The notes beneath the pieces are model-generated. The model ran no database searches. It saw only the letters and a list, made by a program, of their open reading frames with translations, and was not told where the DNA came from. Both the position numbers and the translations under genes were made by a program. Positions 38,315 through 61,899 of a stretch of 64,000 bases of DNA are shown here, piece by piece (the first letter of the stretch is position 1; each line of letters opens with the position of its first letter). The DNA comes from an uncultured Clostridia bacterium (lineage in GTDB: Bacteria > Bacillota > Clostridia > Oscillospirales > CAG-382): NCBI GenBank assembly GCA_947630765.1, contig CANRIX010000005.1, positions 1 through 64,000 on the forward strand. Direction: 5' to 3'.

Positions 38315-40228
38315 TCAGGAATCCGACCGATTCAGGTAGTCGCGCAGCTTCTCGATCGTCGGCATACACGCCTCGTCGAGCTTGAGGTAGTTGATGATAT
38401 CCGTGTACTGCCCGTCGCCGTCGACGTCCGCGTAGTCGTTGCAGGAGAACCAGACGGCGAGCTTGATGCGGCTGCAGAATTCGTAACCGGGGTCCTGGCT
38501 ATGCTCGAAGCAGTCGATCATGCCCTCGACCCACTGGGTCTGGTAGCCGATATTCCTGCCGAGCGTGGTCGTGCGGTAGCCGTTGAGGCCGTAGTCATAG
38601 ACGGCGTTTCCGCCCGCGCCGCAGGCGAATTCCCCGAGGATCCACGGGTAGTTCTCGTAGTAGGGGAGCATCTTATTCGCCGTTTCGGTGTACATGGTCT
38701 GGAAGCTCGCCGGAGCGCCTTCGTTGTTCATCTGGTAATGGGTCAGACCGAGCATCTGCACGTAGTCCGCACCGGGCATGTAGCAGAGCGCTTCGCCCCA
38801 GTTGCAGTACGGGCAGGTCGTCGAGATCGGGTTGATGACCCAGATCAGGTTATTCACGCCCTCCTCTTCAAACAGGTCGTAGACGTGCCGCCAGGTCATC
38901 TGGAAGATATCCGGGTCGAGCAGGGTCATCATGCCGCAGTAGTCGGTCCAGTCGGTGTTCATCTCGTTGTTGACGCGGAAGATGATCGGCTTGGCGTAGT
39001 CCTTCATGAACCCGGCGAGGCTGCGGAAGTAATCGTCGTGCCTGCCGCGCAGGATGTCGAACATCGGGGTATAGACCCCGCCGGTGGCGTTATTGGTTTC
39101 GGTGAACTGGTAGGTCAGGTTGAAAACCGGCTTGCCGTCGAACCCGTTGCCGCCCGCGAAGGCGTCGGCGCGGTCAAAGGTCTCCTTCGGGTCGGCGTAG
39201 GTGCCGTACCAGCCCATGTGCAGGTAGGTCATGTAGACGTCCGGCGTCGCGTTCAGCGCCTCCTCGCCCCAGAGCCATTCGGTGTATTCGTCGCTGTTGC
39301 CCTCGTGGAACGCGCCAAAGCCGACGTCCGTGCGGTTCTGCAGGAATTCGTAGTAGGCCTTCGTCTCCTCCGACCAGTTCGGGTTTTCCTTGCATTCGTA
39401 GGACGTAAAGCCGTTCGCCGGCGTACCGACCATCGGAATCTCGCGGAAGGACGCGACGACGTCGTCCAGCGCGTCGTTCATGCGCTTTTTGGACTTCATG
39501 ACGATCAGGTAGAAGTAGTTATAGGTGTTCGTCGGGCGAATGATGGCGATCTGGTAGAACGGCATTTCGATCTTGCTTGCGAGGTTGATCTGCATACAGT
39601 AGGACTTGACCGTGTAGTCCCCGACCTCGACCTCCTGCACGGCGCGGGTGCGCATGATCTGGTTGTTCGACAGGAACTGCGTGTCGTCGATCTGCTCGAC
39701 CAGCCATTCCCGCATGTACAGGTCGTAGCCGTCCTTGCTCGTGCTGCCGTCGCCCTGCTTGCCGTAGGGGTTCTGGTTCTCATAGGTTAGGGTCAGGCAG
39801 TAGTCCTCGGTGCGGTACTGCGAGCGGAATTTGCCGAGGCTGAAGTCCGCTTCCGGCGCACCCGGGAGCGTGACGCAGTAGCCCTCTGCCGGGACGACCG
39901 CACGCGTGGACGCTTCGCCGGTGAACAGCAGACGCACGTCGTTGTCGCTCGCCGGAGCGGGATCCTCGTCGGTGGCGTTGCCGTTTTCATAGACGGTCGC
40001 CTTGAAAATGCTTTCCGGGCCGGTCAGCCCGTTCGCTTCGTCGGCGTAATCGGACGACCAGACGGCTTCCGCGCGGGGATCCGGGGTTTTCGGCTCCTCG
40101 CTGGGCGTATCGGACGGGTCGGCAGGCTCGGTGTTTTCCGACGACGTGTTGTTCCCGCCCGCACAGCCGGCGAGCAGCAGAAGCGGCGTCAGGAACAGGC
40201 AGAGCATGGTTCGTAGCAGTTTTTTCAT
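38315..40228 (-). CDS. GH26-like lipoprotein (first of a tandem pair)
   Basis: A 637-residue lipoprotein with a lipobox LLAGC (Cys22) and a Ser/Glu/Pro linker. A specific N-terminal domain (about 60-270) precedes a TIM-barrel-like catalytic region (about 300-620). The barrel shows the GH26 pattern: KPIIFRVNNEMNTDW (acid/base Glu) and YPWILGEFACG (nucleophile Glu), with aromatic subsite residues. GH26 enzymes act on beta-mannans and related glucans. It is about 75% alike by eye to the gene at 40331. The promoter is at 40272; co-transcription with the SGNH gene is likely. Confidence 0.85.
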   Translation of the reverse strand: MKKLLRTMLCLFLTPLLLLAGCAGGNNTSSENTEPADPSDTPSEEPKTPDPRAEAVWSSDYADEANGLTGPESIFKATVYENGNATDEDPAPASDNDVRLLFTGEASTRAVVPAEGYCVTLPGAPEADFSLGKFRSQYRTEDYCLTLTYENQNPYGKQGDGSTSKDGYDLYMREWLVEQIDDTQFLSNNQIMRTRAVQEVEVGDYTVKSYCMQINLASKIEMPFYQIAIIRPTNTYNYFYLIVMKSKKRMNDALDDVVASFREIPMVGTPANGFTSYECKENPNWSEETKAYYEFLQNRTDVGFGAFHEGNSDEYTEWLWGEEALNATPDVYMTYLHMGWYGTYADPKETFDRADAFAGGNGFDGKPVFNLTYQFTETNNATGGVYTPMFDILRGRHDDYFRSLAGFMKDYAKPIIFRVNNEMNTDWTDYCGMMTLLDPDIFQMTWRHVYDLFEEEGVNNLIWVINPISTTCPYCNWGEALCYMPGADYVQMLGLTHYQMNNEGAPASFQTMYTETANKMLPYYENYPWILGEFACGAGGNAVYDYGLNGYRTTTLGRNIGYQTQWVEGMIDCFEHSQDPGYEFCSRIKLAVWFSCNDYADVDGDGQYTDIINYLKLDEACMPTIEKLRDYLNRSDS

Positions 40229-40330: not shown

Positions 40331-42214
40331 TCAGGAAGTCTCGTTCAGGTACTCCCGCAGCTCGCGGAGCACGCCCATCGCGTTCTCGTCGAGCATGTAG
40401 GAGGTGATGATCTCGTTGTATTTCCCGTCGCCGTCGACGTCCGCGTAGTCGTTGCTGGAGAACCAGACGGCGAGCTTGATGCGGCGGCAGAACTCGTTCT
40501 CCGGCAGTTGGTTGTTGCGGAAGCAGTCGAGCATATCCGCGACCCACTGGGTCTGCCGGTCGACGTTGCGCCCGAATTCGGTCGCCACATAGCCGTTGAC
40601 GCCGTAATCGTAGTAGGCGACGCCGCCCCCGCCGCAGGCGAATTCCCCGATCATCCACGGGTAGTCCGCGAAGTAGGGGAGCGCGTTGGTCTCCGCCAGC
40701 GTGTACCGCTCGCGGAAGGTCTTATACTCGATGTCGACGTTGTTCGCCTCGTAGTTGGTCAGCCCGAAGATCTGCACGTAGTCCGCCCCGGGCATATAGC
40801 AGACCGTCTCCCCCCAGTTGCAGTACGGGCAGGTGATGGCGATGGGATTGAACACCCAGATCAGGTTGTCCACCCCTTCCTCCTCGAACAGGTCGTACAG
40901 GTGCCGCCACGCCATCTGGAACAGGTCCGGGTCGAGCAGGGTCATCATGCCGCAGTAGTCGGTCCAGTCGGTGTTCATCTCGTTGTTGAGCCGGAAAATG
41001 ATGGGTTTCCCGTAGTCCTTCATGTACCCCGCAAGCTCGCGGAACTGGTTATCCAGCCGACCGCGCAGGATGTCGAACGTCGGGGTGTACGCGCCGGTGG
41101 CGTTGTTGGTCTCGGTGAACTGGTAGGTCAGGTTAAAGACCGGCTTGCCGTCGAACCCGTTGCCGCCCGCGTAGGTGTCGGCACGGTCGAACGTCTCCTC
41201 CGGGCTTTGCGGGTCGCCGTACCAGCCCATTGCCAAGTAGGTCATGTAGACGTCCGGCGTTGCGTCCAGCGCTTCCGGGCCCCAGAGCCATTCGGTATAT
41301 TCGTCGCTGTTGCGCTCGTGGAACGCGCCGAAGCCGACGTCCGTGCGGTTCTGCAGGTATTCATAGTAGGCCTTGGTTTCCTCCGACCAGTTGGGGTTTT
41401 CCTTGCATTCGTAGGACGAAATGCCGTCCGCCGGCGTACCGACCATCGGGATCTCGCGGAAGGACGCGACGATGTCGTCCAGTTCGTCGTTCATGCGTTT
41501 TTGGGACTTCATGACGATCAGGTAGAAGTAGGTGTAGCTCTCCGTCGGGCGGATGATGGCGATCTGGTAGAAGGGCATGTCGATATTGCTCGCGAGGTTG
41601 ATCTGCATGCAGTAGGTCTTGACCGTGTAGGGACCGACCTCGACCTCCTGCAGCGGGCGCGTCCGCATGAGTTGGTTGTCGGCGAGGTATTTGGTGCTGT
41701 CGATGTGCTCGGTCAGCCAGCCCGTGATGTACATATTGTACCCGGCTTCGTCCTTGGAATAGGGGTTCTGGTTCTCGTAGGTCAGCGTCAGGCAGTAGTC
41801 GTCGGTGCGGTACTGCGAGCGGCGGCTGCCGAGGCTGAAGTCCGCTTCCGGCGCACCCGGGAGCGTGACGCAGTAGCCCTCCGCCGGGACGACCGCACGG
41901 GTCGCGTCTGCGCCGGTGAACAGAAGGCGCACGTCGTTATCCGCCGCCGGGGCGGGATTTTTGTCGGTCGCGTTGCCGTTTTGGTAGACGGTCGCTTGGA
42001 AAATGGTCTCCGGGGCGGTCAGTCCGTGCGCTTCGTCGGCGTAGTCGGACGACCAGACGGCATCGGCGCGGGGGTCGGGGGTTTTCGGTTCCTCGCTCGC
42101 CGTCGTTTCGGCGCTCGACGTGTCGTCCGCCGGTTCGGACGCGTCGTTCGTACTTCCGCCGCAGGCGGTCAGGAGCAGAAGAAGGGTCAGCAGCAGCGCG
42201 GTGGCTTTTTTCAT
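40331..42214 (-). CDS. GH26-like lipoprotein (second of a tandem pair)
   Basis: A 627-residue lipoprotein (lipobox LLTAC) with the same layout as its neighbour: linker, specific domain (about 50-265) and GH26-like barrel with IFRLNNEMNTDW and YPWMIGEFACGGGG. The two candidate Glu residues are present in both copies, so both should be active. Differences cluster in the loop after FGLTNYEANN, which may alter specificity. The ATG at 42214 follows AAAGGGG. Confidence 0.85.
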   Translation of the reverse strand: MKKATALLLTLLLLLTACGGSTNDASEPADDTSSAETTASEEPKTPDPRADAVWSSDYADEAHGLTAPETIFQATVYQNGNATDKNPAPAADNDVRLLFTGADATRAVVPAEGYCVTLPGAPEADFSLGSRRSQYRTDDYCLTLTYENQNPYSKDEAGYNMYITGWLTEHIDSTKYLADNQLMRTRPLQEVEVGPYTVKTYCMQINLASNIDMPFYQIAIIRPTESYTYFYLIVMKSQKRMNDELDDIVASFREIPMVGTPADGISSYECKENPNWSEETKAYYEYLQNRTDVGFGAFHERNSDEYTEWLWGPEALDATPDVYMTYLAMGWYGDPQSPEETFDRADTYAGGNGFDGKPVFNLTYQFTETNNATGAYTPTFDILRGRLDNQFRELAGYMKDYGKPIIFRLNNEMNTDWTDYCGMMTLLDPDLFQMAWRHLYDLFEEEGVDNLIWVFNPIAITCPYCNWGETVCYMPGADYVQIFGLTNYEANNVDIEYKTFRERYTLAETNALPYFADYPWMIGEFACGGGGVAYYDYGVNGYVATEFGRNVDRQTQWVADMLDCFRNNQLPENEFCRRIKLAVWFSSNDYADVDGDGKYNEIITSYMLDENAMGVLRELREYLNETS

Positions 42215-42247
42215 GGGTCGTTTTCCCCTTTCTGTTTCTTTTCTCCC

Positions 42248-42276
42248 AGTATACAGGAAATCCGTCGAAATTGCAA
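42248..42276 (-). promoter_or_regulatory. promoter of the 40331 GH26-like gene
   Basis: On the minus strand TTGCAA (42271-42276) and TATACT (42248-42253) are spaced 17 bp. Confidence 0.82.
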
Positions 42277-42333
42277 GAGGTGGCAGAAAAATATTCCGCC
42301 GATTTGTAGAAAACGGCAGGGGAAAGCGAAAAT

Positions 42334-42547
42334 ACAATAAAATAATGCCCCGCAGGCGGACATGCGCCGCCGGAGGGGCTCCTTAAGAGAAAACCGGCGA
42401 AGGCGGCGTCAGAATTGGCGCAAGCCGAGCCGGGTTTTCAAACGTGCCGACAAAGTCGGCACGTTCCGAGGGAGGGAGCCTCCGAGGGGGGAACGCAGAG
42501 TTAGACGGTGCATAGCACCGGCGACACGATTGCGGTCCCCCTTCGGA
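42334..42547 (-). repeat. family-A structured 3' element, copy 3 (with an extra hairpin)
   Basis: Read on the minus strand it begins about 8 nt after the stop of the 42555 gene. Stem A pairs TCCGAAGGGGG at one end with CCCCCCTCGGA at the other, covering the outer positions with sequence unlike the other copies. An additional 11-bp hairpin (42440-42450/42454-42464) is inserted between stems A and B. Stem C again has the CGCATGT loop. Confidence 0.83.
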
Positions 42548-42554
42548 AAAGCTT

Positions 42555-43556
42555 TTATCTTGTTCTGATGCGAAGCGTTACGGCCGCGCCGACCGCGCCG
42601 AGGATCGCAAGCACCGCGAACACGAGCAGCCCCGTGTCACCCGCCTGCACTCCGCCGGACGACGTCGAGCCGGTGGAACCAGTGGAGCTGGCGGAACCAG
42701 TGGAGCCGGTCGAACCCGTGGAGCTAGTGGAACCTGTCGAGCCGGTGGAATCGGTGGACCCGGTCGAACCAGTAGACCCGGTGGAATCGGTGGACGAGGA
42801 GTCGGTCGAGCCCGTAGAGCCGGTTGAATCAGTCGACGAAGAATCCGTCGACGAGGAGTCGGTCGACGAGGAATCGGTCGACGAAGAATCCGTGGACGAA
42901 GAATCCGTCGAACCGGCGGACGAGGAATCGCTGGACGTGGAACCCGTCGACGGCTTCACGAGCGGCGTGCCGACGACCATGGCGTTCTCGTCGCTGACCA
43001 GCGCGAGCGTGTTGAGCGTGACGACGTCGCCGGTTTTCGCCGCCGTGATGTCAAGGTCCTTGAATTCGTGGACGTTGTTTTCGAACCGCTTGTCCCCCGT
43101 GACGTAGGCGGGCAGGTCCCAGACGATGGACGTGTCCGTCGAACGCTTGGTATAGGAAGCGTTTTTCTTCATGCCGGTGAAGAACAGGTCCGCGTTCCCG
43201 CCGTCCTTGTCCTTGCGGGTGTAGTGGATTCGGAAGTCGACGTCCTTGTTTTCGCTGACGAAATCGGCGGCGACGAAGGTTGGCTTGGACAGGTCGACCT
43301 GTGCGCCCGTGTAGTCCGCGAGGTGGATCGGCGTGTCCTCGGACGCGTCCTTCTTGAACGTGAGCGTGACCGAGCCGTTTTCGTTGCGTTTGACCGTCAC
43401 GGATTCGTTGTCGGTATCCTGCAGCGAAGCGAGGAAGTCGACGATCACGACCGAGGACGGCTCCCCGCTGACCGGCTTGCTGTCCGCCGCCATCGCGCAG
43501 ACCGCGCCGAGCGACAGCAGTACCGCCGCCAGCAGAACGGAAATGAACTTTTTCAT
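42555..43556 (-). CDS. tail-anchored surface protein with D3 domain
   Basis: A 333-residue secreted protein. A signal peptide (1-23) precedes D3 (about 30-190; VDFRIHYTRKDKD, SIVWDLPAYVTG, LNTLALVSD), shared with the proteins at 43726 and 56949. A stalk of Ser/Thr/Asp/Gly repeats (about 195-300) ends in VQAGDTGLLVFAVLAIL and the tail RIRTR. No catalytic residues were recognised. D3 may be a binding module. It lies next to the GH26-like genes. Confidence 0.82.
   Translation of the reverse strand: MKKFISVLLAAVLLSLGAVCAMAADSKPVSGEPSSVVIVDFLASLQDTDNESVTVKRNENGSVTLTFKKDASEDTPIHLADYTGAQVDLSKPTFVAADFVSENKDVDFRIHYTRKDKDGGNADLFFTGMKKNASYTKRSTDTSIVWDLPAYVTGDKRFENNVHEFKDLDITAAKTGDVVTLNTLALVSDENAMVVGTPLVKPSTGSTSSDSSSAGSTDSSSTDSSSTDSSSTDSSSTDSSSTDSTGSTGSTDSSSTDSTGSTGSTGSTDSTGSTGSTSSTGSTGSTGSASSTGSTGSTSSGGVQAGDTGLLVFAVLAILGAVGAAVTLRIRTR
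42655..42950 (-). repeat. coding tandem repeats in the D3-protein stalk
   Basis: Units of 15 bp coding D-S-S-S-T and 9-bp units coding S-T-G or T-G-S alternate. The repeats are near-identical at the DNA level, so unit number may vary between strains. Confidence 0.8.
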
Positions 43557-43648
43557 GGAATTTGTTTTCCCCTTTCAGCAGATCATAGTTTTGGGTTTGA
43601 TTGCGTTCTATTTGTTTGCGTTCCATGAGCAAGTATTCCCGATTTTAC

Positions 43649-43684
43649 AAAAAAAATGCGGGCGCCCCGCGAAGGAGCGCCCGA
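43649..43684 (-). terminator. terminator of the 43726 gene
   Basis: On the minus strand GGGCGC and GCGCCC form the core of a stem followed by GCATTTTTTTT. Confidence 0.88.
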
Positions 43685-43725
43685 TTTGAACGGTTAGCGT
43701 TCAGATTTTATGGAGTTTGCGATGC

Positions 43726-44577
43726 TTAGTGTCTTACACGGACAACCGCAACACCGCCGACAACCGCGAGAACCGCGAGAACTGCGAACACGATCATACC
43801 CGTGTCGCCGGTTCCCGGAGCGGTCGAGCTGCTGGAAGCAGGAGCTTCGCTGGAGCTGGAAGCAGGAGCTTCGCTGGAGCTTTCAGCCGTCGTGGTGGTC
43901 TCGGTCGAAGAAGCCTCGCTGGAGGTAGCTTCGGTCGTGGTAGTTTCGGTCGTGGTGGATTCGGTCGGATCCTCGGTCGCGGCAGGCTTCACAAGCGGTT
44001 CGCCCGGCTTCAGCGCGGACGCGTCGGAAATCAGCGCGAGGGTGTTGAAGGTGATCGGTTTGTCTTTCTTGCCGACCGTGATCACCAGATCGGTGTACTG
44101 GTGCATATTGTCAGCGTTGAGCTTGTCGTTATCGGTCAGATACTTGGTGACGTTCCAGACAACGGAGGTTTCGGTCTTGGCAGCGGCGTAAGCGGCGTTT
44201 CCATCGGTACGCATACCGGTCCAGAACTGGTCGGCAAGCTTATCCTTGCGGGTGTAGTGAAGACGGAAATCGATGTCCGTGATTTCGCAGGCGATGTCCA
44301 CAGCGAGATAGGTCTGCTTGGTCGCGTCGAACTTGCCGCCTTCAAAGGCAGTGACGATGGTGGCGGGGGTATTCGCATCGATGTCACGCTTCGGCGTGAC
44401 GGTGACGGTGCCGTTGTCGTTGACGACGACCGTGACGTCAGCCGTGTCGGCCGCCTTGATTTCGCTGAGCAAGTTGTAGATGACGGGGCTGGTCTCTTCC
44501 GCGGAAACTGCGAGCGCGCAGGTGACGGAAGCGATCAGCATCGTCGCGATGAGGAGCGCTGAGAGTAACTTTTTCAT
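43726..44577 (-). CDS. tail-anchored surface protein with D3 domain
   Basis: A 283-residue secreted protein. A signal peptide (about 1-26) precedes D3 (about 30-185; IDFRLHYTRKDK, SVVWNVTKYLTD, TFNTLALISD). A Thr/Glu/Ser-rich stalk follows, then APGTGDTGMIVFAVLAVL and the end VRVRH. It differs from its neighbour in stalk composition, not in layout. The ATG at 44577 has AAAGGGG upstream; an open frame extending further 5' crosses the promoter. Confidence 0.82.
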   Translation of the reverse strand: MKKLLSALLIATMLIASVTCALAVSAEETSPVIYNLLSEIKAADTADVTVVVNDNGTVTVTPKRDIDANTPATIVTAFEGGKFDATKQTYLAVDIACEITDIDFRLHYTRKDKLADQFWTGMRTDGNAAYAAAKTETSVVWNVTKYLTDNDKLNADNMHQYTDLVITVGKKDKPITFNTLALISDASALKPGEPLVKPAATEDPTESTTTETTTTEATSSEASSTETTTTAESSSEAPASSSSEAPASSSSTAPGTGDTGMIVFAVLAVLAVVGGVAVVRVRH

Positions 44578-44661
44578 TGCTGTTTTTCCCCTTTCGGTTT
44601 TTCTTTTTTGTTTGGCGGTTTGCATCGGCTTTTGCAAAGGAACCGATTCAAAACCACTTTC

Positions 44662-44690
44662 AGTATAGCAAATGCGGGCGGGCTTGTCAA
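44662..44690 (-). promoter_or_regulatory. promoter of the 43726 gene
   Basis: On the minus strand TTGACA (44685-44690) and TATACT (44662-44667) are spaced 17 bp, with TGC before the -10. Confidence 0.9.
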
Positions 44691-44771
44691 GAGGTTTTGG
44701 AAATTTTTTCAGGAAATTTTGTTTTTCGTCGCTTTCGACCTTTTTCGGGGCATTTTTTCGCGAAAATGGAT

Positions 44772-44802
44772 AAAAAAGAGCGCCCCCGCGAAAGGGCGCT
44801 CG
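44772..44802 (-). terminator. terminator of the stalk-only gene
   Basis: On the minus strand GAGCGCCC and GGGCGCTC form a stem followed by TTTTTT. Confidence 0.92.
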
Positions 44803-44814
44803 TGCAAAACGGGT

Positions 44815-45147
44815 TTAGTGTCTTGCGCGTGCCACGACCACGCCGCCGACGGCGGAGAGGACCGCGAGGACCGCAAGGACGATCAAGCCGGTGTCGCCGG
44901 TCGTCGGAGCAGTCGAGCTGGCAGCCGACGAAGCGGCACTGCTTTCGGTCGAGGCGGCGCTGCTTTCGGTCGAGGCGGCGCTGCTTTCGGTCGAGGCGGC
45001 ACTGCTTTCGGTCGAGGCGGCACTGCTTTCAGTCGAAGCGGCACTGCTGTCGTCGGCAGCGGGCTCGTCCGCAGAAACTGCGAGCACGCAGGTCGCGGAA
45101 AGGACCAGCAGCGCGACGACGAGGATCGCGGAAAGTACCTTCTTCAT
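44815..45147 (-). CDS. stalk-only tail-anchored surface peptide
   Basis: A 110-residue protein made only of a signal peptide (about 1-25), a repetitive Ser/Ala/Thr/Glu stalk (about 28-80) and the tail APTTGDTGLIVLAVLAVL...RARH. It has no globular domain. Its own consensus promoter, ribosome-binding site and terminator show it is a real gene. It could be a spacer or decoy in the envelope, or a remnant that lost its domain. Confidence 0.8.
   Translation of the reverse strand: MKKVLSAILVVALLVLSATCVLAVSADEPAADDSSAASTESSAASTESSAASTESSAASTESSAASTESSAASSAASSTAPTTGDTGLIVLAVLAVLSAVGGVVVARARH
44936..45048 (-). repeat. 21-bp coding tandem repeat (five copies)
   Basis: Five near-identical 21-bp units encode S-S-A-A-S-T-E repeats. 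Only third-position and single-base differences separate them, so this is a likely variable-number repeat. Confidence 0.9.
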
Positions 45148-45229: not shown

Positions 45230-45258
45230 ATTATAGTCCAACAGGCAGCAAATGTCAA
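45230..45258 (-). promoter_or_regulatory. promoter of the stalk-only gene
   Basis: On the minus strand TTGACA (45253-45258) and TATAAT (45230-45235) are spaced 17 bp: full consensus. Confidence 0.93.
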
Positions 45259-47137: not shown

Positions 47138-47395
47138 GTGCAGACGAGGGTCGGCGTGATGAGCATCATCGTCGAGGACCGCGATTCGGTCGGGCGGCTC
47201 AACGAGCTGCTGCACGAGTACGGGGAGTATATCCTCGGGCGCATGGGCATTCCCTGCCGCGACAAGGGGATTCACATCATCAGTATCGCCTTTGACGCGC
47301 CGCAGGACCGCATTTCGGCGCTGGCGGGGCAGATCGGCAAGCTGCCCGGCGTGAGCGTAAAGACCGCCCTGTCGGGGGTGACCGGGAATGGGTGA
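47138..47395 (+). CDS. TM1266-type iron-only hydrogenase system regulator
   Basis: An 85-residue ACT-like protein: RVGVMSIIVEDRDSV, RLNELLHEYGEYILGRMGIP, HIISIAFDAPQDRISAL and LPGVSVKTALS match the small putative regulator found beside hyd genes. It starts at a GTG (47138) with AAGG upstream and overlaps hydE by 8 nt. Confidence 0.9.
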   Translation: MQTRVGVMSIIVEDRDSVGRLNELLHEYGEYILGRMGIPCRDKGIHIISIAFDAPQDRISALAGQIGKLPGVSVKTALSGVTGNG

Positions 47396-48443
47396 CCTGT
47401 CGGCATTGATTGAGAAGCTGACGGCGGGGGAGCGGCTGACCGAGGCGGAATTCCGCGAACTGCTCGTCGGGCGCGACGACGCGACGGCGAAGGCGCTCGC
47501 GGAAAAAGCGGTCGAAGTGCGGAAGTCCATCTACGGCGACGCGGTCTTCACGCGGGGGCTGATCGAGATCGGCAACATCTGCCGCAACGACTGCTACTAC
47601 TGCGGCATTCGCCGGAGCAACGCGAACTGCGAGCGCTACCGCTTGACGGACGAGGAGATCCTGTCCTGCGCCGACGAGGGGTACGAGCTGGGCTTTCGGA
47701 CGTTCGTCCTGCAGGGCGGGGAGGACGGGTATGACACCGACGAGCGGATGTGCGGTCTGCTGCGGGAATTGAAGCGGCGGCACCCGGACTGCGCTTTGAC
47801 GCTTTCGCTCGGCGAACGTTCGCGGGAGAGCTATCAGGCGCTGTTCGACGCGGGGGCGGACCGCTACCTGCTGCGGCACGAAACGGCGGACCGAACGCAC
47901 TACGGCCGCCTGCATCCGCCGGAGCTGTCGTTCGACAACCGCATGCAATGCCTGCGGGATTTGCGGGAGATCGGGTATCAGGTCGGGTGCGGATTCATGG
48001 TCGGGTCGCCGTTCCAGACGGAGGCGGAACTGGCGAAGGACCTGCTGTTCGTGCAGGAATTCCGTCCGGATATGTGCGGTATCGGACCGTTCATCCCGCA
48101 CCGCGACACCCCGTTCCGGGGGGAGAGCGCCGGGTCGGTGGAACTGACCTGCTTCCTGCTTTCGGTGATCCGGCTGGTCTACCCGCCGGTGCTGCTGCCC
48201 GCGACGACGGCGCTCGGGACGCTGCATCCGCGTGGGCGGGAGCTGGGCATCCTCGCCGGGGCGAACGTGGTCATGCCCAATCTGTCCCCGGTCTCGGTGC
48301 GGAAAAAATACGAACTTTACGATAATAAGATCTGCACGGGCGAGGAAGCGGCGGAATGCCGCGGCTGCCTTGCGCGTCGCATGGAATCCATCGGCTACCG
48401 CCTGACGGTAGACCGGGGCGACATCAGAAAAGGAGAAAGGTGA
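47388..48443 (+). CDS. hydE: [FeFe]-hydrogenase maturase HydE
   Basis: A 351-residue radical-SAM enzyme that helps build the H-cluster diiron centre. The SAM motif is CRNDCYYC within GLIEIGNICRNDCYYCGIR. Further blocks FVLQGGEDGYD and ADRYLLRHETAD fit HydE. The ATG at 47388 lies inside the regulator gene, so the two are coupled. hydG follows after 6 bp. Confidence 0.95.
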   Translation: MGDLSALIEKLTAGERLTEAEFRELLVGRDDATAKALAEKAVEVRKSIYGDAVFTRGLIEIGNICRNDCYYCGIRRSNANCERYRLTDEEILSCADEGYELGFRTFVLQGGEDGYDTDERMCGLLRELKRRHPDCALTLSLGERSRESYQALFDAGADRYLLRHETADRTHYGRLHPPELSFDNRMQCLRDLREIGYQVGCGFMVGSPFQTEAELAKDLLFVQEFRPDMCGIGPFIPHRDTPFRGESAGSVELTCFLLSVIRLVYPPVLLPATTALGTLHPRGRELGILAGANVVMPNLSPVSVRKKYELYDNKICTGEEAAECRGCLARRMESIGYRLTVDRGDIRKGER

Positions 48444-48449
48444 ATCGTT

Positions 48450-49898
48450 ATGGCAATCTACGACCCGACCTCCCGGAAGGCGGAGGAATTCATCAACGAC
48501 GCGGAGATTCGCGAAACCCTCGCCTACGCGGAGGAAAACAAGCACAACCTCCCGCTGATCGACGCGATCCTGGAGAAGGCGCGTCCGAAGAAGGGAGAAA
48601 CCGGGTACACCTGCGCCGGACTGACCCACCGGGAAGCGTCCGTGCTGCTGGCGTGCGACCTGCCGGAGAAGATCGAGGAGATCTACCGCATCGCCGAGGA
48701 GACCAAGCTGGCGTTCTACGGCAACCGCATCGTCATCTTTGCGCCGCTCTACCTGTCGAACTACTGCGTCAACGGGTGCGTGTACTGCCCGTACCACATG
48801 AAAAACAAGCACATTCCCCGCCGCAAGCTGACGCAGGAGGAGGTCCGCAGGGAAGTCATCGCCCTGCAGGACATGGGGCATAAGCGGCTCGCCATCGAAG
48901 CGGGGGAGGACCCGGTCAACAATCCGATCGAGTACATCCTCGACTGCATCCACACGATCTACGGCGTCCACCACAAGAACGGCGACATCCGCAGGGTCAA
49001 CGTCAATATCGCGGCGACGACCGTCGAGAACTACCGCCGGCTCAAGGAGGCGGGGATCGGGACCTATATCCTCTTCCAGGAGACCTACCACAAGGAGAGC
49101 TACCTCGCCCTGCACCCGACCGGGCCGAAGCACGATTACGACTACCACACCGAGGCGATGGACCGTGCGATGGACGGCGGGATCGACGACGTGGGGCTGG
49201 GCGTGCTGTTCGGGTTGGAGCGGTACGCGTATGAGTTCGCCGGTCTGCTGATGCACGCCGAACACCTCGAGGCCGTCCACGGCGTCGGGCCGCATACCAT
49301 CAGCGTGCCCCGCGTCAAGCGTGCCGACGACATCGACCCGGACGCGTTCGACAACGGCATCGACGACGAGACGTTCGCCAAGATCACCGCCTGCATTCGC
49401 CTCGCCGTCCCGTACACCGGCATGATCATCTCCACCCGCGAGACGCAGGCGGTCCGGGAGAAGCTGCTGCGGCTGGGCATTTCGCAGGTCAGCGGCGGTT
49501 CGCGGACGTCCGTGGGCGGGTACGCCGAGGAGGAGCGCCCGCACGATACGGAGCAGTTCGACGTGTCCGACCAGCGCACGCTCGACGAGGTCGTCCGCTG
49601 GCTGATGGAGAACGGGCATATCCCGTCCTTCTGCACGGCGTGCTACCGCGAGGGGCGCACCGGCGACCGATTCATGAGCCTGTGCAAGAGCGGGCAGATC
49701 CTCAATTGCTGCCACCCGAACGCGTTGATGACCCTCGCCGAGTATCTGGAGGACTACGCGTCGCCGGAAACCAAGGCGGTCGGGGACAAGCTCATCGAGC
49801 GGGAGCTGGAGCGCATCCCGAAGGAGAAGGTCCGCGAGATCGCGCGGCGGAACATCGCGGAGATTCGGAACAATGGGAAAAGAGATTTTCGCTTCTGA
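48450..49898 (+). CDS. hydG: [FeFe]-hydrogenase maturase HydG
   Basis: A 482-residue tyrosine lyase that makes the CO and CN ligands of the H-cluster. It carries the radical-SAM motif in NYCVNGCVYCPYHMKN and the C-terminal auxiliary-cluster Cys residues in FCTACYREGRTGDRFM and the following CCHPNAL segment. The length and both clusters separate it from the related ThiH, which lacks the C-terminal one. Confidence 0.95.
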   Translation: MAIYDPTSRKAEEFINDAEIRETLAYAEENKHNLPLIDAILEKARPKKGETGYTCAGLTHREASVLLACDLPEKIEEIYRIAEETKLAFYGNRIVIFAPLYLSNYCVNGCVYCPYHMKNKHIPRRKLTQEEVRREVIALQDMGHKRLAIEAGEDPVNNPIEYILDCIHTIYGVHHKNGDIRRVNVNIAATTVENYRRLKEAGIGTYILFQETYHKESYLALHPTGPKHDYDYHTEAMDRAMDGGIDDVGLGVLFGLERYAYEFAGLLMHAEHLEAVHGVGPHTISVPRVKRADDIDPDAFDNGIDDETFAKITACIRLAVPYTGMIISTRETQAVREKLLRLGISQVSGGSRTSVGGYAEEERPHDTEQFDVSDQRTLDEVVRWLMENGHIPSFCTACYREGRTGDRFMSLCKSGQILNCCHPNALMTLAEYLEDYASPETKAVGDKLIERELERIPKEKVREIARRNIAEIRNNGKRDFRF

Positions 49899-49954
49899 AA
49901 GTCCCTTTTGGGACTTGTAAAGCGTAGGAACGACGTCGGAAAGGGGAAGGAATT

Positions 49955-51145
49955 ATGAGTTTGCAGGAAACGGTTTCGGCGGAACGGGTGCATATCGGGT
50001 TTTTCGGGAAGCGCAACGCCGGGAAGTCCAGCCTGGTCAACGCCGTGACGGGGCAGGCGCTCTCGGTGGTCTCGCCGGTGCGCGGGACGACGACCGACCC
50101 GGTCAAGAAGGCGATGGAGCTGCTGCCGCTCGGGCCGGTGCTGATCATCGACACGCCCGGGCTGGACGACGAGGGGGAGCTGGGCGAGCTGCGGGTCCGC
50201 AAGGCGAAGCAGATGCTGGCGCAGACCGACCTCGCCGTGCTCGCCGTGGACGCGTGCGCGGGGCTTTCGCCGGAGGACGCGGAGCTGCTTTCCCTCTTTC
50301 GGGAGCGGGGGTTGCCGTATGTGGTCGCCTATAACAAGGCGGACCTGCTCGCCGAACGACCGCCGCTGCCGCCGGACGGGCTGTACGTCAGCGCGGTGAC
50401 GGGAGAGGGCGTGCATGAACTGAAGGAGAAGCTCGGCAGCTTCGCCAAAACGCTGGAAAACCCGAGGAAGCTGGTCGCCGACCTGCTTGCTCCGGGGGAC
50501 GTGACGGTGCTGGTCATTCCCATCGACGCCGCCGCGCCGAAGGGACGGCTGATTTTGCCGCAGCAGCAGGTCATGCGCGAACTGCTGGACGCGCACCTGC
50601 CGTTCGCCGCCTGCCAGGACACGGAGCTGCGGGAGACGCTTTGTGCGCTTTCGCGCCCGCCGAAGCTGGTCGTGACGGATTCGCAGGCGTTCGGGAAGGT
50701 CGCGTCCGTCCTGCCGCCGGAGCAGCTTTTGACGTCGTTTTCCATCCTGTTCGCCCGCTATAAGGGCGAGCTCGGACAGCTCGTCCGGGGTGCCGAGGCG
50801 CTCGCGGACCTGCGCGACGGCGACCGGGTGCTGATCGCCGAGGGGTGTACGCACCACCGCCAGTGCGGGGACATCGGGACGGTCAAACTGCCCGCGTGGC
50901 TGGAAGGGTATACCGGCGCAAAACCGGTCTATACGTTCACGTCCGGCGGGGAGTTCCCGGAGGACCTTTCGCCGTTTTCGCTGGTGATTCATTGCGGGGC
51001 GTGTATGCTCAACGCCGCCGAGGTCGCGAGCCGGTTGCGCCGTGCGGCGGACGCCGGCGTGCCGGTCGTCAATTACGGCGTCGCCATCGCGAAGATGCAC
51101 GGGATTCTGGAGCGGAGCTTGAAGGTATTTGGTTTCGGGGGGTAA
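49955..51145 (+). CDS. hydF: [FeFe]-hydrogenase maturation GTPase HydF
   Basis: A 396-residue scaffold GTPase. The G domain has GKRNAGKSSLVNAV, DTPGLDDEGEL and NKAD; the C-terminal part has the FeS ligand motif with CTHHRQCGD and the final HCGAC. The last codons (KVFGFGG, stop) lie inside stem A of a family-A 3' element (TTCGGGGGG at 51134-51142), so the extreme C-terminus seems shaped by that element. With hydE and hydG it completes the maturation set; no hydrogenase structural gene lies in the window. Confidence 0.94.
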   Translation: MSLQETVSAERVHIGFFGKRNAGKSSLVNAVTGQALSVVSPVRGTTTDPVKKAMELLPLGPVLIIDTPGLDDEGELGELRVRKAKQMLAQTDLAVLAVDACAGLSPEDAELLSLFRERGLPYVVAYNKADLLAERPPLPPDGLYVSAVTGEGVHELKEKLGSFAKTLENPRKLVADLLAPGDVTVLVIPIDAAAPKGRLILPQQQVMRELLDAHLPFAACQDTELRETLCALSRPPKLVVTDSQAFGKVASVLPPEQLLTSFSILFARYKGELGQLVRGAEALADLRDGDRVLIAEGCTHHRQCGDIGTVKLPAWLEGYTGAKPVYTFTSGGEFPEDLSPFSLVIHCGACMLNAAEVASRLRRAADAGVPVVNYGVAIAKMHGILERSLKVFGFGG

Positions 51146-56948: not shown

Positions 56949-59633
56949 TTAGCGTCTCACTTTCACTGCGACGATGGCGCCGACAGTGGAGAGGACACCG
57001 AGAATAGCGAACACCAGCATGCTGCTGTCGCCGGTCTGGGGAGACGTGGACGTGCTCGCCGCAGAGGACGTGCCTGTCCCGGAAGCCGTAGACTGGCTGG
57101 AGGAGGTAGTGCTGGAGGTTTCGCTGGACGCGTCGCTGGAGGTGTCACTGGACGTGTCACTGGAGGTTTCGCTGGACGTGTCACTGGACGTGTCACTGGA
57201 GGTGTCGCTGGACGTATCGCTGGACGTATCGCTGGACGTGTCGCTGGACGTGTCACTGGACGTGTCACTGGATGTGTCGCTGGACGTGTCACTGGAGGTG
57301 TCGCTGGACGTATCGCTGGACGTGTCGCTGGACGTGTCGCTGGAGGTATCGCTGGACGTGTCGCTGGACGTGTCGCTGGACGTGTCGCTGGACGTGTCAC
57401 CGCTGGGCTCAACATAATCGCCACGGGTGATGAGCGGGGTGCCGACTGTCATCGCATCTTTCACGTTGACAAACGCATACGTGTTGAACGTGATGGTGTC
57501 GCCAGCGTTCGCATTGGTGAACGTGAGGTCGCCGAGGGCACTGCCGCCCGCGACTGCACGGTTACTACCGACATACTTGCTGAAGTCCCAAACGAACCAA
57601 TCTTCGCCCTTCTCTTCGGCGGCACCTTTCCCGCTGTCATAATACGCTTCTGCATAGGGGTTCTTGTCAGACCGCGCATAGTGCAGGAAGAAGTTGATAT
57701 TCGCGTCGCTTCTCACAACGTCCGCAACGAAATACAGGTTCAGTCTGGTCAGGTCGAGCTTTGCGCCGATAGTATCCACGATCGTAAGACGGTTGTCATT
57801 CGTCACATTCCTATGGAACGTGATGGTGACAGAGCTGTCCTTGTTGACCTTGATGGTGTATTCGTCGGTTTCGGTGTTCGTCAGCGCGGACAGAACATCG
57901 AATTCGATCACATCAAGCGTATCAAGTTTCATCTCGTCTGCGTTGAACGTGACGTATGGAGCGGTATTGGTTTCACCGGAATAGTTGGTGATATAGCCGT
58001 TATCGCCCATTTCGGCGTTTTCGCTCGCGATATGCAGCGCCTGATACGTGGCCGTGCGATCCTCGGTCGGCTCGAGATTGGTGCTGTATGTGACATACAT
58101 ACGGTAATCGCCGGTCACGAGGAACATCGCTTTCTTGAAGGAAACTTCCGCGGTCAGCTTGTTATCCGCATAGTTGATCGCATAGTTATCGCTGGTGAAG
58201 TCGGACAGTTTTGCAGAAACTTCCGCGTCGCTGTAAATCAGACGGACGACCGTCCAACCCTTTTCCTCGCCAAGGTACTGAATGTCGATCGCGTAGCGCA
58301 GATTGTCCTTGACGCGGATCCAGACGCGGAGCATGGAAGTCGCGGTTTGGTTGTACCCAACGATCTGCGTACCGGCGTCATTCGGCGTCATATCGGGGGC
58401 ATAGCCCTCATTGATGGACGGAGCCGGGATGTTGTCGATCTCGACACCGACATAGACGTTTTCGTCATCCGTACGGGTCTCAAACTTCGCGGTAACGTTT
58501 TTGGGCTCGGGAGCATTGTTTTGCTGCCAGTATGTTTTGGAAACCTGCGGTGTCTTGGTCCAGCCGGTATCGTCCAGCTTGCCGTCGATCGCGATCGCTT
58601 CCTTGACGGTGGGTTCCTTCTCAAACGAGAGGGCGTTCCAAGTGACCTTCCACACGTAGATGCTCAGGGTGACCTTCGTGATCGTGATCTTGCCGGTGGT
58701 TCCGGCATATCTGGCAAAATCATAGTAGGTATCCGATGTATTTCTGAAATCGTTCGCTGTGCCCGTCGCAACATTAGAGAGCTGCGCGGTCTTTTCTTCG
58801 GTGCCACCCTCTTCGGTGTAGTAAATCATGCCGTTGACGCCCACTTCGCCCGTCGTTTCCGGGACGGTGAAATCCAGATGCAGGTAGGGCGTTTCGGAAA
58901 GGTCAATGACGATGCCCTGGGCATTATCCAAGCTGATGGACGGCCATGCAAGGTCACTATCTGCCGCTCTGGCCATCGTCAACTTGCCGTTGTCGATGGA
59001 GAAATCGACTTTGGAGGTTGCTCCCGAGTTGGGAACTTGCGACACTTGATCCTCGCTCGTCGGGAGCAGGGAAACGACATCCGCGTTTTCCGGCTCGTCT
59101 CCGCCCTGCGCGGGAGCGGGACCGCGATACAGCGTCGCGCCGGACGCGTCGTCGTTGACAACGATCTGCCAATCCGTCGTGACATCACGGACGCCATTGT
59201 ACAGGGCGCCTTCGAGGGCTTCGAGCTCCCCGTAGTATGCTTTGAGCTCGGGATTTGCGTTCCCGTCCCCGGTGTGGAACGCGATGGCGAAACCGCCCGC
59301 CGGAACGTCGACAGAACGGGTCCACGGGTTGGTCTCGGGGTCGGTCGGATGCGTAGCATGGGTGACGAGCTGTGCTGCGATGCGAACGATCGTGCCGTCC
59401 GCGTCGCAAACGAGAATGTACGCCCAGCGGAAGTTCCAATCATCCGACTGAAGAGTACGTACGGAGTCCGCGTTTCCAGGGTAGTAGTTGACCGATGCAT
59501 TGCCAATCACTGCATCCGTCCCTGTAAACGTGACAGTTAGTGGTTCTGCTTCCGCCGTTTGCGCAGCGAATACGCAGACGACAGAAATCACGGACAGCAC
59601 CACTGCAAGAATTAGTGCGACTGTTTTTTTCAT
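56949..59633 (-). CDS. large modular tail-anchored surface protein (D1-D2-CBM9-like-D3)
   Basis: An 894-residue secreted protein that contains all three shared modules. Signal peptide (1-24); D1 (about 30-165; DWNFRWAYILV, VPAGGFAIAFH, ALYN); D2 (about 180-345; SLLPTSED, WPSISLD, ETPYLHLDF, LSIYVW, WNALSF); a CBM9-like domain (about 350-590; AIDGKLDDTGWTKTP, YVGVEI); D3 (about 600-745; INFFLHYARSDK, VWDFSKYVG). An Asp/Thr/Ser stalk and the tail SPQTGDSSMLVFAILGVL...VKVRR end it. It probably binds glycans at the surface. No catalytic site seen. Confidence 0.85.
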   Translation of the reverse strand: MKKTVALILAVVLSVISVVCVFAAQTAEAEPLTVTFTGTDAVIGNASVNYYPGNADSVRTLQSDDWNFRWAYILVCDADGTIVRIAAQLVTHATHPTDPETNPWTRSVDVPAGGFAIAFHTGDGNANPELKAYYGELEALEGALYNGVRDVTTDWQIVVNDDASGATLYRGPAPAQGGDEPENADVVSLLPTSEDQVSQVPNSGATSKVDFSIDNGKLTMARAADSDLAWPSISLDNAQGIVIDLSETPYLHLDFTVPETTGEVGVNGMIYYTEEGGTEEKTAQLSNVATGTANDFRNTSDTYYDFARYAGTTGKITITKVTLSIYVWKVTWNALSFEKEPTVKEAIAIDGKLDDTGWTKTPQVSKTYWQQNNAPEPKNVTAKFETRTDDENVYVGVEIDNIPAPSINEGYAPDMTPNDAGTQIVGYNQTATSMLRVWIRVKDNLRYAIDIQYLGEEKGWTVVRLIYSDAEVSAKLSDFTSDNYAINYADNKLTAEVSFKKAMFLVTGDYRMYVTYSTNLEPTEDRTATYQALHIASENAEMGDNGYITNYSGETNTAPYVTFNADEMKLDTLDVIEFDVLSALTNTETDEYTIKVNKDSSVTITFHRNVTNDNRLTIVDTIGAKLDLTRLNLYFVADVVRSDANINFFLHYARSDKNPYAEAYYDSGKGAAEEKGEDWFVWDFSKYVGSNRAVAGGSALGDLTFTNANAGDTITFNTYAFVNVKDAMTVGTPLITRGDYVEPSGDTSSDTSSDTSSDTSSDTSSDTSSDTSSDTSSDTSSDTSSDTSSDTSSDTSSDTSSDTSSDTSSDTSSDTSSDTSSETSSDTSSDTSSDASSETSSTTSSSQSTASGTGTSSAASTSTSPQTGDSSMLVFAILGVLSTVGAIVAVKVRR
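57114..57399 (-). repeat. 12-bp coding tandem repeat (about two dozen copies)
   Basis: The unit encodes D-T-S-S, with a few E or A exchanges. Third-position differences (GTC/GTA, TCG/TCA) mark individual copies, so slippage variation is likely. Its complementary strand also stays open, which gives a false repeat protein. Confidence 0.92.
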
Positions 59634-59727: not shown

Positions 59728-60840
59728 TTAGTGTCTCGCCTTCACAGCGACGGCGACGCCGGCGACGGAGAGAACGCCGAGGACGGCGAACACCAGCATT
59801 CCGCTGTCACCGGCCGCAGGCGCGGACGAAGAAGCCGGCGCAGAGGACGCGGGTTCGGACGAAGCCGGTTCGGACGAAGCCGGTTCGGAGGACGTCGGTT
59901 CAGACGAAGCCGGCGTATCCGCCTTGGCGAATTCGTGGGAAGCCGGGAGGATCTGGTAGGTCTTGGCGCTTTCGTCCAGGACGATCCAGTCGCCTTCCTT
60001 CACACCGCGCATGAGCCATTTTGCGGCGGCGTAGGTCGTATCGTCTTCGTTGTCCTTGTTGATGTTGCCCTGCGTCTGGATGGCGAGGAGGATCTCGTTC
60101 TCCGCAAGGGTGACCTTCCCGGTGTGTCCGTCCGGCCACGGGTTGACAAGGTTGAAGCGAACTTTGTATGCTTTGACGGTATCGTCCCAGGTCGCGACGG
60201 TGATCTGCGAGGACTTGAGATACTTCGTTTCTTCGGTCAGCGTGAGATCATAGTCTCCCGGGGTCTTGAACAGACCGGTACCGGGGGTTCCGGGCGCGGA
60301 ATCAGGCGTGTAGCCGAACGCGTGGTTCGGGTCGAAGTTCTTCGTGTCGGCCGCGGCAGGCGTCACGCCGATTTCGGAGATGGAGAGGGTCTTGCCGGTG
60401 AAGGTGACCTTCGCTTTGACGTAGCGGGCGTTGACCGCGATGCGCGCCGCGAAGTTGGTGGTCACGGCGGTCGCGTCGGCGGCAACCTTGCAGGAGCCTT
60501 CCTCCGCCGTTACGACATAGTAGTCCTTGCCGTCGAGGGAGACGGAAACGTCCAGAGCGGACGGTTTCGCGTCGTCCGCGCAGGTGAAGTCCACCGCGCT
60601 GAGGGTCTTGGCTTCGCCGAGGTCGAAGGTGATTTCAACCGTCGCGGCGTCGTCTGTCTTGTTGGTGAAAACGACTGCTTCATCGGTCTTGCCGTCGGTC
60701 AGCTTCGCGACGTCGTCATTGTTGAATTCGACGTTGTCCGAGGCGGTCGCCGTGGTCGCCGTTTTGTCGTCCGCGGACGCCACGACCGCAAAGCTGAGCG
60801 CAAGCGCCGCAACCAGCAGGCATGCCAGTACTCTTTTCAT
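59728..60840 (-). CDS. tail-anchored surface protein with a discoidin-like domain
   Basis: A 370-residue secreted protein. Signal peptide (1-23); a beta-sandwich (about 28-150) with F5/8-type-C character (VEITFDLGEAKTLSAVDFTC, SVSLDGKDYYVV, NARYVKAKVTFTG, LSISEIGV); and a second domain (about 160-320; SSQITVATWDDTVKAYKVRFN) of unknown family. A Ser/Glu/Pro/Ala stalk leads to APAAGDSGMLVFAVLGVL and VKARH. AAAGGAG is 10 nt before the ATG. Confidence 0.83.
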   Translation of the reverse strand: MKRVLACLLVAALALSFAVVASADDKTATTATASDNVEFNNDDVAKLTDGKTDEAVVFTNKTDDAATVEITFDLGEAKTLSAVDFTCADDAKPSALDVSVSLDGKDYYVVTAEEGSCKVAADATAVTTNFAARIAVNARYVKAKVTFTGKTLSISEIGVTPAAADTKNFDPNHAFGYTPDSAPGTPGTGLFKTPGDYDLTLTEETKYLKSSQITVATWDDTVKAYKVRFNLVNPWPDGHTGKVTLAENEILLAIQTQGNINKDNEDDTTYAAAKWLMRGVKEGDWIVLDESAKTYQILPASHEFAKADTPASSEPTSSEPASSEPASSEPASSAPASSSAPAAGDSGMLVFAVLGVLSVAGVAVAVKARH

Positions 60841-60908: not shown

Positions 60909-60958
60909 GAAAAAAGGGCGGCTCCCGCCCGCCCTTTCCACAAGGACAGGCGGGAGCC
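60909..60958 (-). terminator. terminator of the 61002 gene
   Basis: On the minus strand GGCTCCCGCC and GGCGGGAGCC form a long stem that ends in GCCCTTTTTT. Confidence 0.88.
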
Positions 60959-61001: not shown

Positions 61002-61829
61002 TTAGTGTCTGGTCTTGACCGCGATCGCCACACCGGCGACAGCGACGACGCCCAGCACCGCGAACACCAGAACGCCGGAATCCCCGGTCGTCGGGCCGTT
61101 GGAGGAAGCCGCAGGCGCGGAGGACGCGGGAGCGGATTCGGACGGCGTGGAAGTAGCGGGGGCGGAGGACGCCGGTTCGGACGAGGTCGTTTCGGACGCG
61201 GCGGGTTCGCCAGCGCCTTCCGACGCAAACGCGAGGGCGTTCCAGGTGCCGTTGCCGACATAGACGCTCAGCGTGAGCTTCGTGATCTTGATCTTGCCCG
61301 GATTCTTGATGTCCGTGCGGGCCTTGAGCCAATCGACGACGTTGAGATAGACGTCGGTCGACGTGCGGAAGTCATCGGAAGCGGGGTTGACATTGTTGTT
61401 GTCCGGGAAATCCGTGCCGGGAGCATGGTTGTCTGTTTCGGGATACCGCAGCGCGGAGAGCTGAATCTCTGCCGCCGTACCGTCGGCTGCTTCGCAGGCA
61501 ATGATGCCGTTGATACCGATTTCGCCCTGTCCTTCCGGGATCGTAACGTTGATGTGGAGGTACGGGGTGGCGGTCAGGTCGATTTCCTTGCCCGCGGCTT
61601 CGGTGACTTCGATGGACGGCCACGCAGGGTTGGAGCCGGCAGCCATAGCGATGGTCAGTTTGCCGTTTTCAACTTTGTAGTCGGTCGTGCCGTCTACCTG
61701 CGAGATCTTGCTTTGATCCGTCGGCAACAAGCTGACCTTGTCCGTGTACTTGGGATCCGCCGCAGATGCGACGACTGCGAAGCAGGCCGTGAGAGCCACG
61801 ACCAAGAGAAGCGCGAGGAATCTTTTCAT
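61002..61829 (-). CDS. tail-anchored surface protein with D2 domain
   Basis: A 275-residue secreted protein. A signal peptide (about 1-24) precedes D2 (about 27-205; SLLPTDQSK, WPSIEV, ATPYLHINV, LSVYVG, WNALAF), the simplest carrier of this module in the window. A Ser/Glu/Pro/Ala stalk and GPTTGDSGVLVFAVLGVV...VKTRH end it. It probably binds a glycan. The ATG at 61829 lies behind a consensus promoter. Confidence 0.84.
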   Translation of the reverse strand: MKRFLALLLVVALTACFAVVASAADPKYTDKVSLLPTDQSKISQVDGTTDYKVENGKLTIAMAAGSNPAWPSIEVTEAAGKEIDLTATPYLHINVTIPEGQGEIGINGIIACEAADGTAAEIQLSALRYPETDNHAPGTDFPDNNNVNPASDDFRTSTDVYLNVVDWLKARTDIKNPGKIKITKLTLSVYVGNGTWNALAFASEGAGEPAASETTSSEPASSAPATSTPSESAPASSAPAASSNGPTTGDSGVLVFAVLGVVAVAGVAIAVKTRH

Positions 61830-61870: not shown

Positions 61871-61899
61871 AGTATAGCACGCGTCCGACCATTTGTCAA
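61871..61899 (-). promoter_or_regulatory. promoter of the 61002 gene
   Basis: On the minus strand TTGACA (61894-61899) and TATACT (61871-61876) are spaced 17 bp, with TGC before the -10. Confidence 0.92.

Follow-up and report, generated by a model that had tools for sequence, protein, structure and literature searches.

Six proteins encoded on the minus strand of a 64,000-nt stretch of DNA from a gut Clostridia bacterium (contig CANRIX010000005.1, positions 1 to 64,000; hereafter the window) end in a common C-terminal tail, in which a short motif closing on Gly-Asp is followed by a hydrophobic helix and a positively charged end. The tail is built like a cell-wall sorting signal, marks a protein family found across the genus and, apart from the variable residue that precedes Gly-Asp, is under purifying selection; that residue, the threonine of sortase signals, is not conserved, and the genome encodes a sortase with intact catalytic residues. 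We assign a probability of roughly 55% to the reading that the tail derives from a sorting signal, that its threonine-bearing versions are sorted to the wall and that its alanine- and proline-bearing versions are mostly membrane anchors. The threonine before the cut is usually treated as a fixed part of sortase signals, yet this genus keeps the tail and varies exactly that residue, by protein and by species. Either a single residue decides between wall and membrane, or a threonine-independent sortase exists; if either were true, the prediction of surface proteins in gut Clostridia would change, including that of the cohesin proteins holding cellulosome-like complexes.

Anatomy of the tail in the window and in its genome

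The tail-bearing proteins, numbered by position and with tail types named after the residue before Gly-Asp, are listed below; CBM denotes carbohydrate-binding module.

42555..43556, minus: tail protein 1 (333 aa); signal peptide, CBM-like domain A, Ser/Thr/Gly-rich linker, tail type A (VQAGD)
42558..42659, minus: tail of protein 1, SGGVQAGDTGLLVFAVLAILGAVGAAVTLRIRTR; Ala before Gly-Asp, the same in the orthologues of three related genomes
43726..44577, minus: tail protein 2 (283 aa from the Met codon); signal peptide, domain A, Ser/Thr-rich linker, tail type T (PGTGD)
43729..43827, minus: tail of protein 2
44815..45147, minus: tail protein 3 (110 aa); signal peptide, ASTESSA repeats, tail type T (PTTGD), no folded domain seen
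44818..44916, minus: tail of protein 3
56949..59633, minus: tail protein 4 (894 aa); signal peptide, domain B, further domain, domain A, DTSS repeats, tail type T (PQTGD)
56952..57050, minus: tail of protein 4
57399..57914, minus: domain A copy in protein 4, CBM-like jelly roll
58599..59102, minus: domain B copy in protein 4, CBM-like jelly roll
59728..60840, minus: tail protein 5 (370 aa); signal peptide, F5/8 type C domain (PF00754, E 2.8e-10), tail type A (PAAGD)
59731..59829, minus: tail of protein 5
61002..61829, minus: tail protein 6 (275 aa from the Met codon); signal peptide, domain B, Ser/Pro-rich linker, tail type T (PTTGD)
61005..61103, minus: tail of protein 6

All six tails were confirmed at the places given by an earlier, sequence-only reading of the window, namely at the ends of the proteins at 42555 (...GGVQAGDTGLLVFAVLAILGAVGAAVTLRIRTR), 43726 (...TAPGTGDTGMIVFAVLAVLAVVGGVAVVRVRH), 44815 (...TAPTTGDTGLIVLAVLAVLSAVGGVVVARARH), 56949 (...TSPQTGDSSMLVFAILGVLSTVGAIVAVKVRR), 59728 (...SAPAAGDSGMLVFAVLGVLSVAGVAVAVKARH) and 61002 (...NGPTTGDSGVLVFAVLGVVAVAGVAIAVKTRH); the interval 42555-45147 to which that reading had assigned the feature covers three of the genes, the other three lying outside it. 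A six-frame scan of the window with the tail pattern returned the same six and no seventh. The mean pairwise identity of the hydrophobic cores is 0.52, versus 0.18 (maximum 0.23) after shuffling the residues inside every core, so the likeness of the tails is not mere shared composition. The search of the genome with a hidden Markov model of the six tails, suggested in the same reading, separated ten tails (E <= 2.1e-10) from the next match (E 0.39). The four outside the window lie on contigs C32 (SPQTGD), C12 (PTTGD), C21 and C3 (both K-P-G-D); here and below, C3, C7, C12, C15, C21, C32 and C37 are contigs of the same genome, while G001 and similar labels denote other genomes compared.

The description of the core as [TA]-G-D without LPXTG turned out to understate the motif: four of the six window tails carry P-x-T-G-D (43726, 44815, 56949, 61002), and the remaining two have alanine before Gly-Asp, as V-Q-A-G-D (42555) and P-A-A-G-D (59728). 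After the hydrophobic stretch, the positive end consists of K/R-x-R-[HR] alone. The proposed resemblance to a cell-wall sorting signal was borne out, since the anatomy is the same and the tail of 56949 exceeds the cut-offs of both LPXTG anchor models, PF00746 and TIGR01167 (22.0 and 19.1 bits, cut-offs 20 and 15.9). No other tail does so: the scores are 19.5 and 14.4 for 44815, 18.1 and 12.1 for 43726 and 13.5 and 14.0 for 61002, the shortfall being less than 2 bits for 44815 and 43726 with PF00746 and for 61002 with TIGR01167; 59728 reaches 12.5 bits with PF00746, and 42555 matches neither model. TIGR01167 proved unspecific when run over whole genomes (matches in 14 of 14 control genomes) and was left out of the counts.

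Compared with known systems, the tails share the overall layout of the LPXTG anchor domain but have no Leu at P4, Pro and Thr positions that are not constant and, in five of six cases, scores below the Pfam cut-off. With the class B signal of Clostridioides difficile SrtB, (S/P)PxTG, they have in common the signal peptide, P-x-T-G in four of the six window tails, the hydrophobic helix and the positive end, and a class-B-like sortase is present in the genome; they differ from it in having Ser, Ala or Gly at P4, a near-invariant Asp after the Gly, Ala or Pro at P1 in many cases, a very short charged end and a helix more conserved than expected. The PEP-CTERM signal of exosortases likewise combines a short motif, a helix and a positive end on many proteins of one genome, but neither a PEP motif nor an exosortase is found here.

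The six proteins follow a common layout of signal peptide, folded part or none, Ser/Thr/Pro/Gly-rich linker and tail. As read directly from the sequence, all six N-termini show MKK or MKR, a hydrophobic run and small residues before the mature part; in three open reading frames the Met codon of the signal peptide (44577, 60840 and 61829) lies downstream of the longest possible start. In the reading we prefer, the tail would anchor a family of secreted surface proteins, spread across the genus, by their C-termini, and would descend from a class-B-sortase-type signal (P-x-T-G-D, hydrophobic helix, K-x-R end). Export would proceed through the N-terminal signal peptide, with the helix and positive end halting the protein in the membrane. 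Where Thr precedes Gly-Asp, as in four of the six, a class-B-like sortase would cut between Thr and Gly and join the protein to the wall, and such tails would be substrates at least in part; where Ala or Pro takes its place (in two of the window's six tails and in roughly half of those of the genus), such a tail would be a poor substrate or none, and the protein would mostly stay anchored in the membrane. This division between substrates and anchors draws on published observations. According to the literature, sortase classes differ in what they accept at P4, P3 and P1' but not in the P1 threonine (PMC8361268), whose hydroxyl is contacted by the catalytic Arg when C. difficile SrtB is modelled (PMC5118464). 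A C. difficile protein from which SPKTG was deleted stays trapped in the membrane, held there by the helix and the charged end, and two proteins with SPSTG or SPQTG and short charged ends, a feature shared by the tails here, are not anchored by sortase (PMC5569036).

The residue before Gly-Asp across the genus

The comparison covered 60 genomes; the genus is represented by 24, including the one studied here. The assemblies are at contig level and many are incomplete. The tail was found in 22 of the 24. The genus yielded 87 tails, a count in which related tails enter as separate items and from which strongly diverged tails may have escaped; 41 of them have T before Gly-Asp, 30 have P, 14 have A and 2 have S, while 36 preserve P-x-T-G-D in full. 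Elsewhere in the family, where the comparison rests on single tails from other genera, T predominates (read by eye; the automatic motif call misplaces two). Because two of the tails in the genome studied here are of the KPGD kind and about half of those in the genus lack a scissile threonine, sortase processing cannot be assumed for all of them.

The residue changes between orthologues. Reciprocal best matches pair GPTTGD in G001 with APSAGD in G014 (bodies 90% identical), APATGD in G004 with EDGAGD in G010 (78%), TPPTGD in G004 with VGNPGD in G010 (75%) and APATGD in G003 with EDGPGD in G010 (76%). The helix is retained where T is replaced by A or P, and the Pro at -3 is often lost together with the T (PPTGD to GNPGD). 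None of the eight tails of G010 has the threonine, though the orthologues in sister species do; a supposed joint loss of threonine and class-B-like sortase in G010 was withdrawn, trigger factor and clpX being absent from the same assembly, probably through a gap. Among orthologues, conservation is 0.77 at -3 and 0.73 at -1, as against 0.53 in the linker; the two positions are therefore not free, but they appear clearly less fixed than would be expected of a sortase motif.

The helix behaves differently from the motif. The ratio of nonsynonymous to synonymous differences per site (pN/pS) is 0.46 for tails of the type found in the window, with pS near saturation at about 0.6, and 0.26 for the PGD group, in which helix identity is 0.77 versus 0.17 after shuffling. 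These values show that the helix is constrained and is not a recent copy at the DNA level, and recent gene conversion was rejected for the own-type tails on account of their near-saturated synonymous sites. A rough control gave the reverse pattern: LPETGG tails in or near the genus have a motif that is 100% identical and a helix that is 40% identical, although these are four sequences found with an LPXTG model and the control is thus partly circular. As a separate observation, near-identical tails stand at the very ends of different contigs (at the starts of C8 and C14 of G002, C1 of G027, C1 and C6 of G028), as if repeated tail DNA had broken the assemblies.

This distribution of constraint, strong on the helix and not on the pentapeptide, speaks for the alternative that no tail is processed at all: the tail would then do no more than anchor the C-terminus in the membrane, its likeness to a sortase signal being inherited, and the sortases would act on other proteins. 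The cut-site substitutions among orthologues and the reversed pattern of the LPETGG tails, with the small and model-chosen sample just described, would fit such an anchor, as would the plain membrane anchors that occur elsewhere in the genus. The short charged ends of the tails also recall two C. difficile proteins with SPSTG or SPQTG and short charged ends that are not anchored by sortase (PMC5569036). We nevertheless consider an entirely unprocessed tail rather unlikely: T is still the commonest residue, P-x-T-G-D persists in 36 tails, conservation at -3 and -1 exceeds that of the linker, the tails of other genera of the family mostly retain T, and a class-B-like sortase is kept wherever its locus is assembled.

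Sortases and other candidate readers

Three sortases exceed the PF04203 cut-off in the genome, all of them outside the window, which agrees with the earlier proposal of a reader encoded elsewhere; that such a reader is dedicated to the tail found no support, and no sortase gene was seen beside the tail genes of the window. Two of the three are class B-like (TIGR03064, E 7e-37 and 7e-35, both under the curated cut-off of that model). One of these, on contig C15, adjoins trigger factor and clpX, an arrangement found in 13 genomes of the genus, and its catalytic residues His216, Cys311 (in T-C) and Arg320 are invariant in 14 aligned sequences. Orthologues occur in 16 of the 24 genus genomes, the present one included, and the G001 copy is 95% identical; of the remaining eight genomes, seven have no trigger-factor gene either and one has a contig that breaks off within it, so that the absence of the sortase is most simply an assembly gap. 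From these sequence comparisons, this enzyme, a general class-B-like sortase of the genus, is the best candidate reader of the tail, and in the reading we prefer the cutting enzyme would most likely be this sortase beside the trigger-factor gene.

The second class-B-like sortase, on C7 (L003:776-2358), adjoins a protein ending in SPETGD, which is likely to be its dedicated substrate; further species of the genus have comparable substrate-like proteins, in which PQTGD follows a FAIV-type domain. The third, on C37, falls outside the class-B-like pair. Over 6.9 kb, its contig matches G001 at 93% identity in a region that, in G001, continues into three grouped tail genes, with housekeeping-like genes in between.

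Several observations weigh against a division into sorted T-type and membrane-retained A- and P-type tails by this enzyme. The C15 sortase scores 126.9 bits with TIGR03064 (E 7.4e-37), below the curated cut-off of 153.75, and is for this reason called class B-like only. G009 has a class-B-like sortase, but the models used found only two PGD tails and no P-x-T-G-D in this fragmented metagenome-assembled genome (MAG), and its sortase would thus need other substrates. Moreover, the type of each protein is mostly the same across the nearest species (A for VQAGD, P for KPGD), and a function for Ala and Pro could also account for this.

The last two points could be accommodated by a single sortase of relaxed cut-site specificity, which would process all four types of tail (T, A, S and P) and read mainly Gly-Asp and the helix. 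Gly-Asp is nearly constant while the preceding residues vary (the tails were aligned on [G/S]-D, which makes the D 100% by construction), each protein keeps its own residue across close species, and G009, fragmented as its MAG is, provides the best argument. A proline at the acyl-donor position would, however, be unusual for a cysteine peptidase. The loss of the Pro at -3 in many orthologues that lose T speaks against such an enzyme as well, as does the description of the P1 threonine as invariable among sortase classes (PMC8361268), and we regard relaxed processing as rather improbable.

The conserved helix (in the PGD group, well above its shuffled value) and the conservation of PGD across several species could instead point to a new dedicated enzyme, whether exosortase-like, rhombosortase-like or another intramembrane peptidase, that reads P/T/A-G-D together with the helix. 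The exosortase-like reader suggested by the sequence-only reading was rejected, the family PF09721 being absent from all 60 genomes. No candidate gene for another such enzyme was found in a search that left aside the near-ubiquitous rhomboid and CPBP peptidases, and we hold a dedicated enzyme to be highly improbable. The broader proposition that either the class-B-like sortase or some unrecognised enzyme processes tails with Pro or Ala as donor, Gly-Asp and the helix forming a signal outside the threonine rule, seems to us distinctly unlikely.

Displayed domains, transcription and neighbouring genes

Domain A, of about 170 residues, occurs in three of the six window proteins and domain B in two; the further domain that lies between B and A in protein 4 is common to the KPGD proteins. 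Structures were predicted with a mean pLDDT (predicted local distance difference test) of 91 for domain A and 82 for domain B. In Foldseek and VIA-align comparisons, domain A matched the CBM30 of a cellulosomal cellulase and a CBM of a gut xylanase (best Z 8.2), and domain B matched a xanthanase module and CBM16, CBM29 and CBM11 (best Z 10.9). The predicted models make it likely that both belong to the carbohydrate-binding jelly-roll fold type; assignment to a known family (CBM30-, CBM4-, CBM16- or CBM29-type jelly rolls) was attempted and not made, as scores were middling. The tail so appears to display several kinds of surface protein, most of them with domains that look likely to bind sugars. 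The linkers at 44815-45147, 42555-43556 and 56949-59633 contain long runs of the short repeats ASTESSA, SSTD and DTSS, and are likely to vary in length between strains.

No cohesin domain was found in the six window proteins, and there is none among the structure matches shown for domains A and B, which excludes nothing. Dockerins are numerous in the genus (21 in this genome), which also carries cohesins. The setting resembles that of the scaffoldin cSca5 of Limousia, which combines LPxTG and cohesin in gut Clostridia with dockerins and cohesins (PMC12997984); in several related species of the genus the tail likewise sits on cohesin proteins, though these mostly carry PGD rather than LPxTG. 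The only cohesin protein found in the present genome, on contig C1 (L267:1966-3231, plus strand), ends in a plain helix and RKKKML with no sortase-like motif. On C12 (L268:2029-8448, plus strand), a subtilase of 2,139 residues with PA and Big_2 domains combines a weak dockerin match with a PTTGD tail and could, judging from these matches, be one protein able to dock and be anchored at once.

Promoter and terminator-like elements, compared with the consensus, flank three of the tail genes:

45230..45258, minus: promoter TTGACA-17-TATAAT, 12/12 consensus match, upstream of protein 3
44662..44690, minus: promoter TTGACA-17-TATACT, 11/12 consensus match, upstream of protein 2
61871..61899, minus: promoter TTGACA-17-TATACT, 11/12 consensus match, upstream of protein 6
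44778..44801, minus: terminator-like hairpin with T run after protein 3
43659..43683, minus: terminator-like hairpin with T run after protein 2
60920..60958, minus: terminator-like hairpin with T run after protein 6

Given these near-perfect sigma-70 promoters and strong terminator-like hairpins, the genes of proteins 2, 3 and 6 look separately transcribed and are perhaps highly expressed.

Directly downstream of the first tail cluster lie two adjacent, similar lipoprotein-like proteins (38315-40228 and 40331-42337, both on the minus strand), each with a match to glycosyl hydrolase family 26. Between the two groups of tail genes, at 47388-51145 on the plus strand, two radical S-adenosylmethionine (SAM) proteins and HydF (with HydF dimer and tetramer domains) are encoded, and this cluster probably comprises the HydE-HydG-HydF maturation genes of an [FeFe]-hydrogenase.

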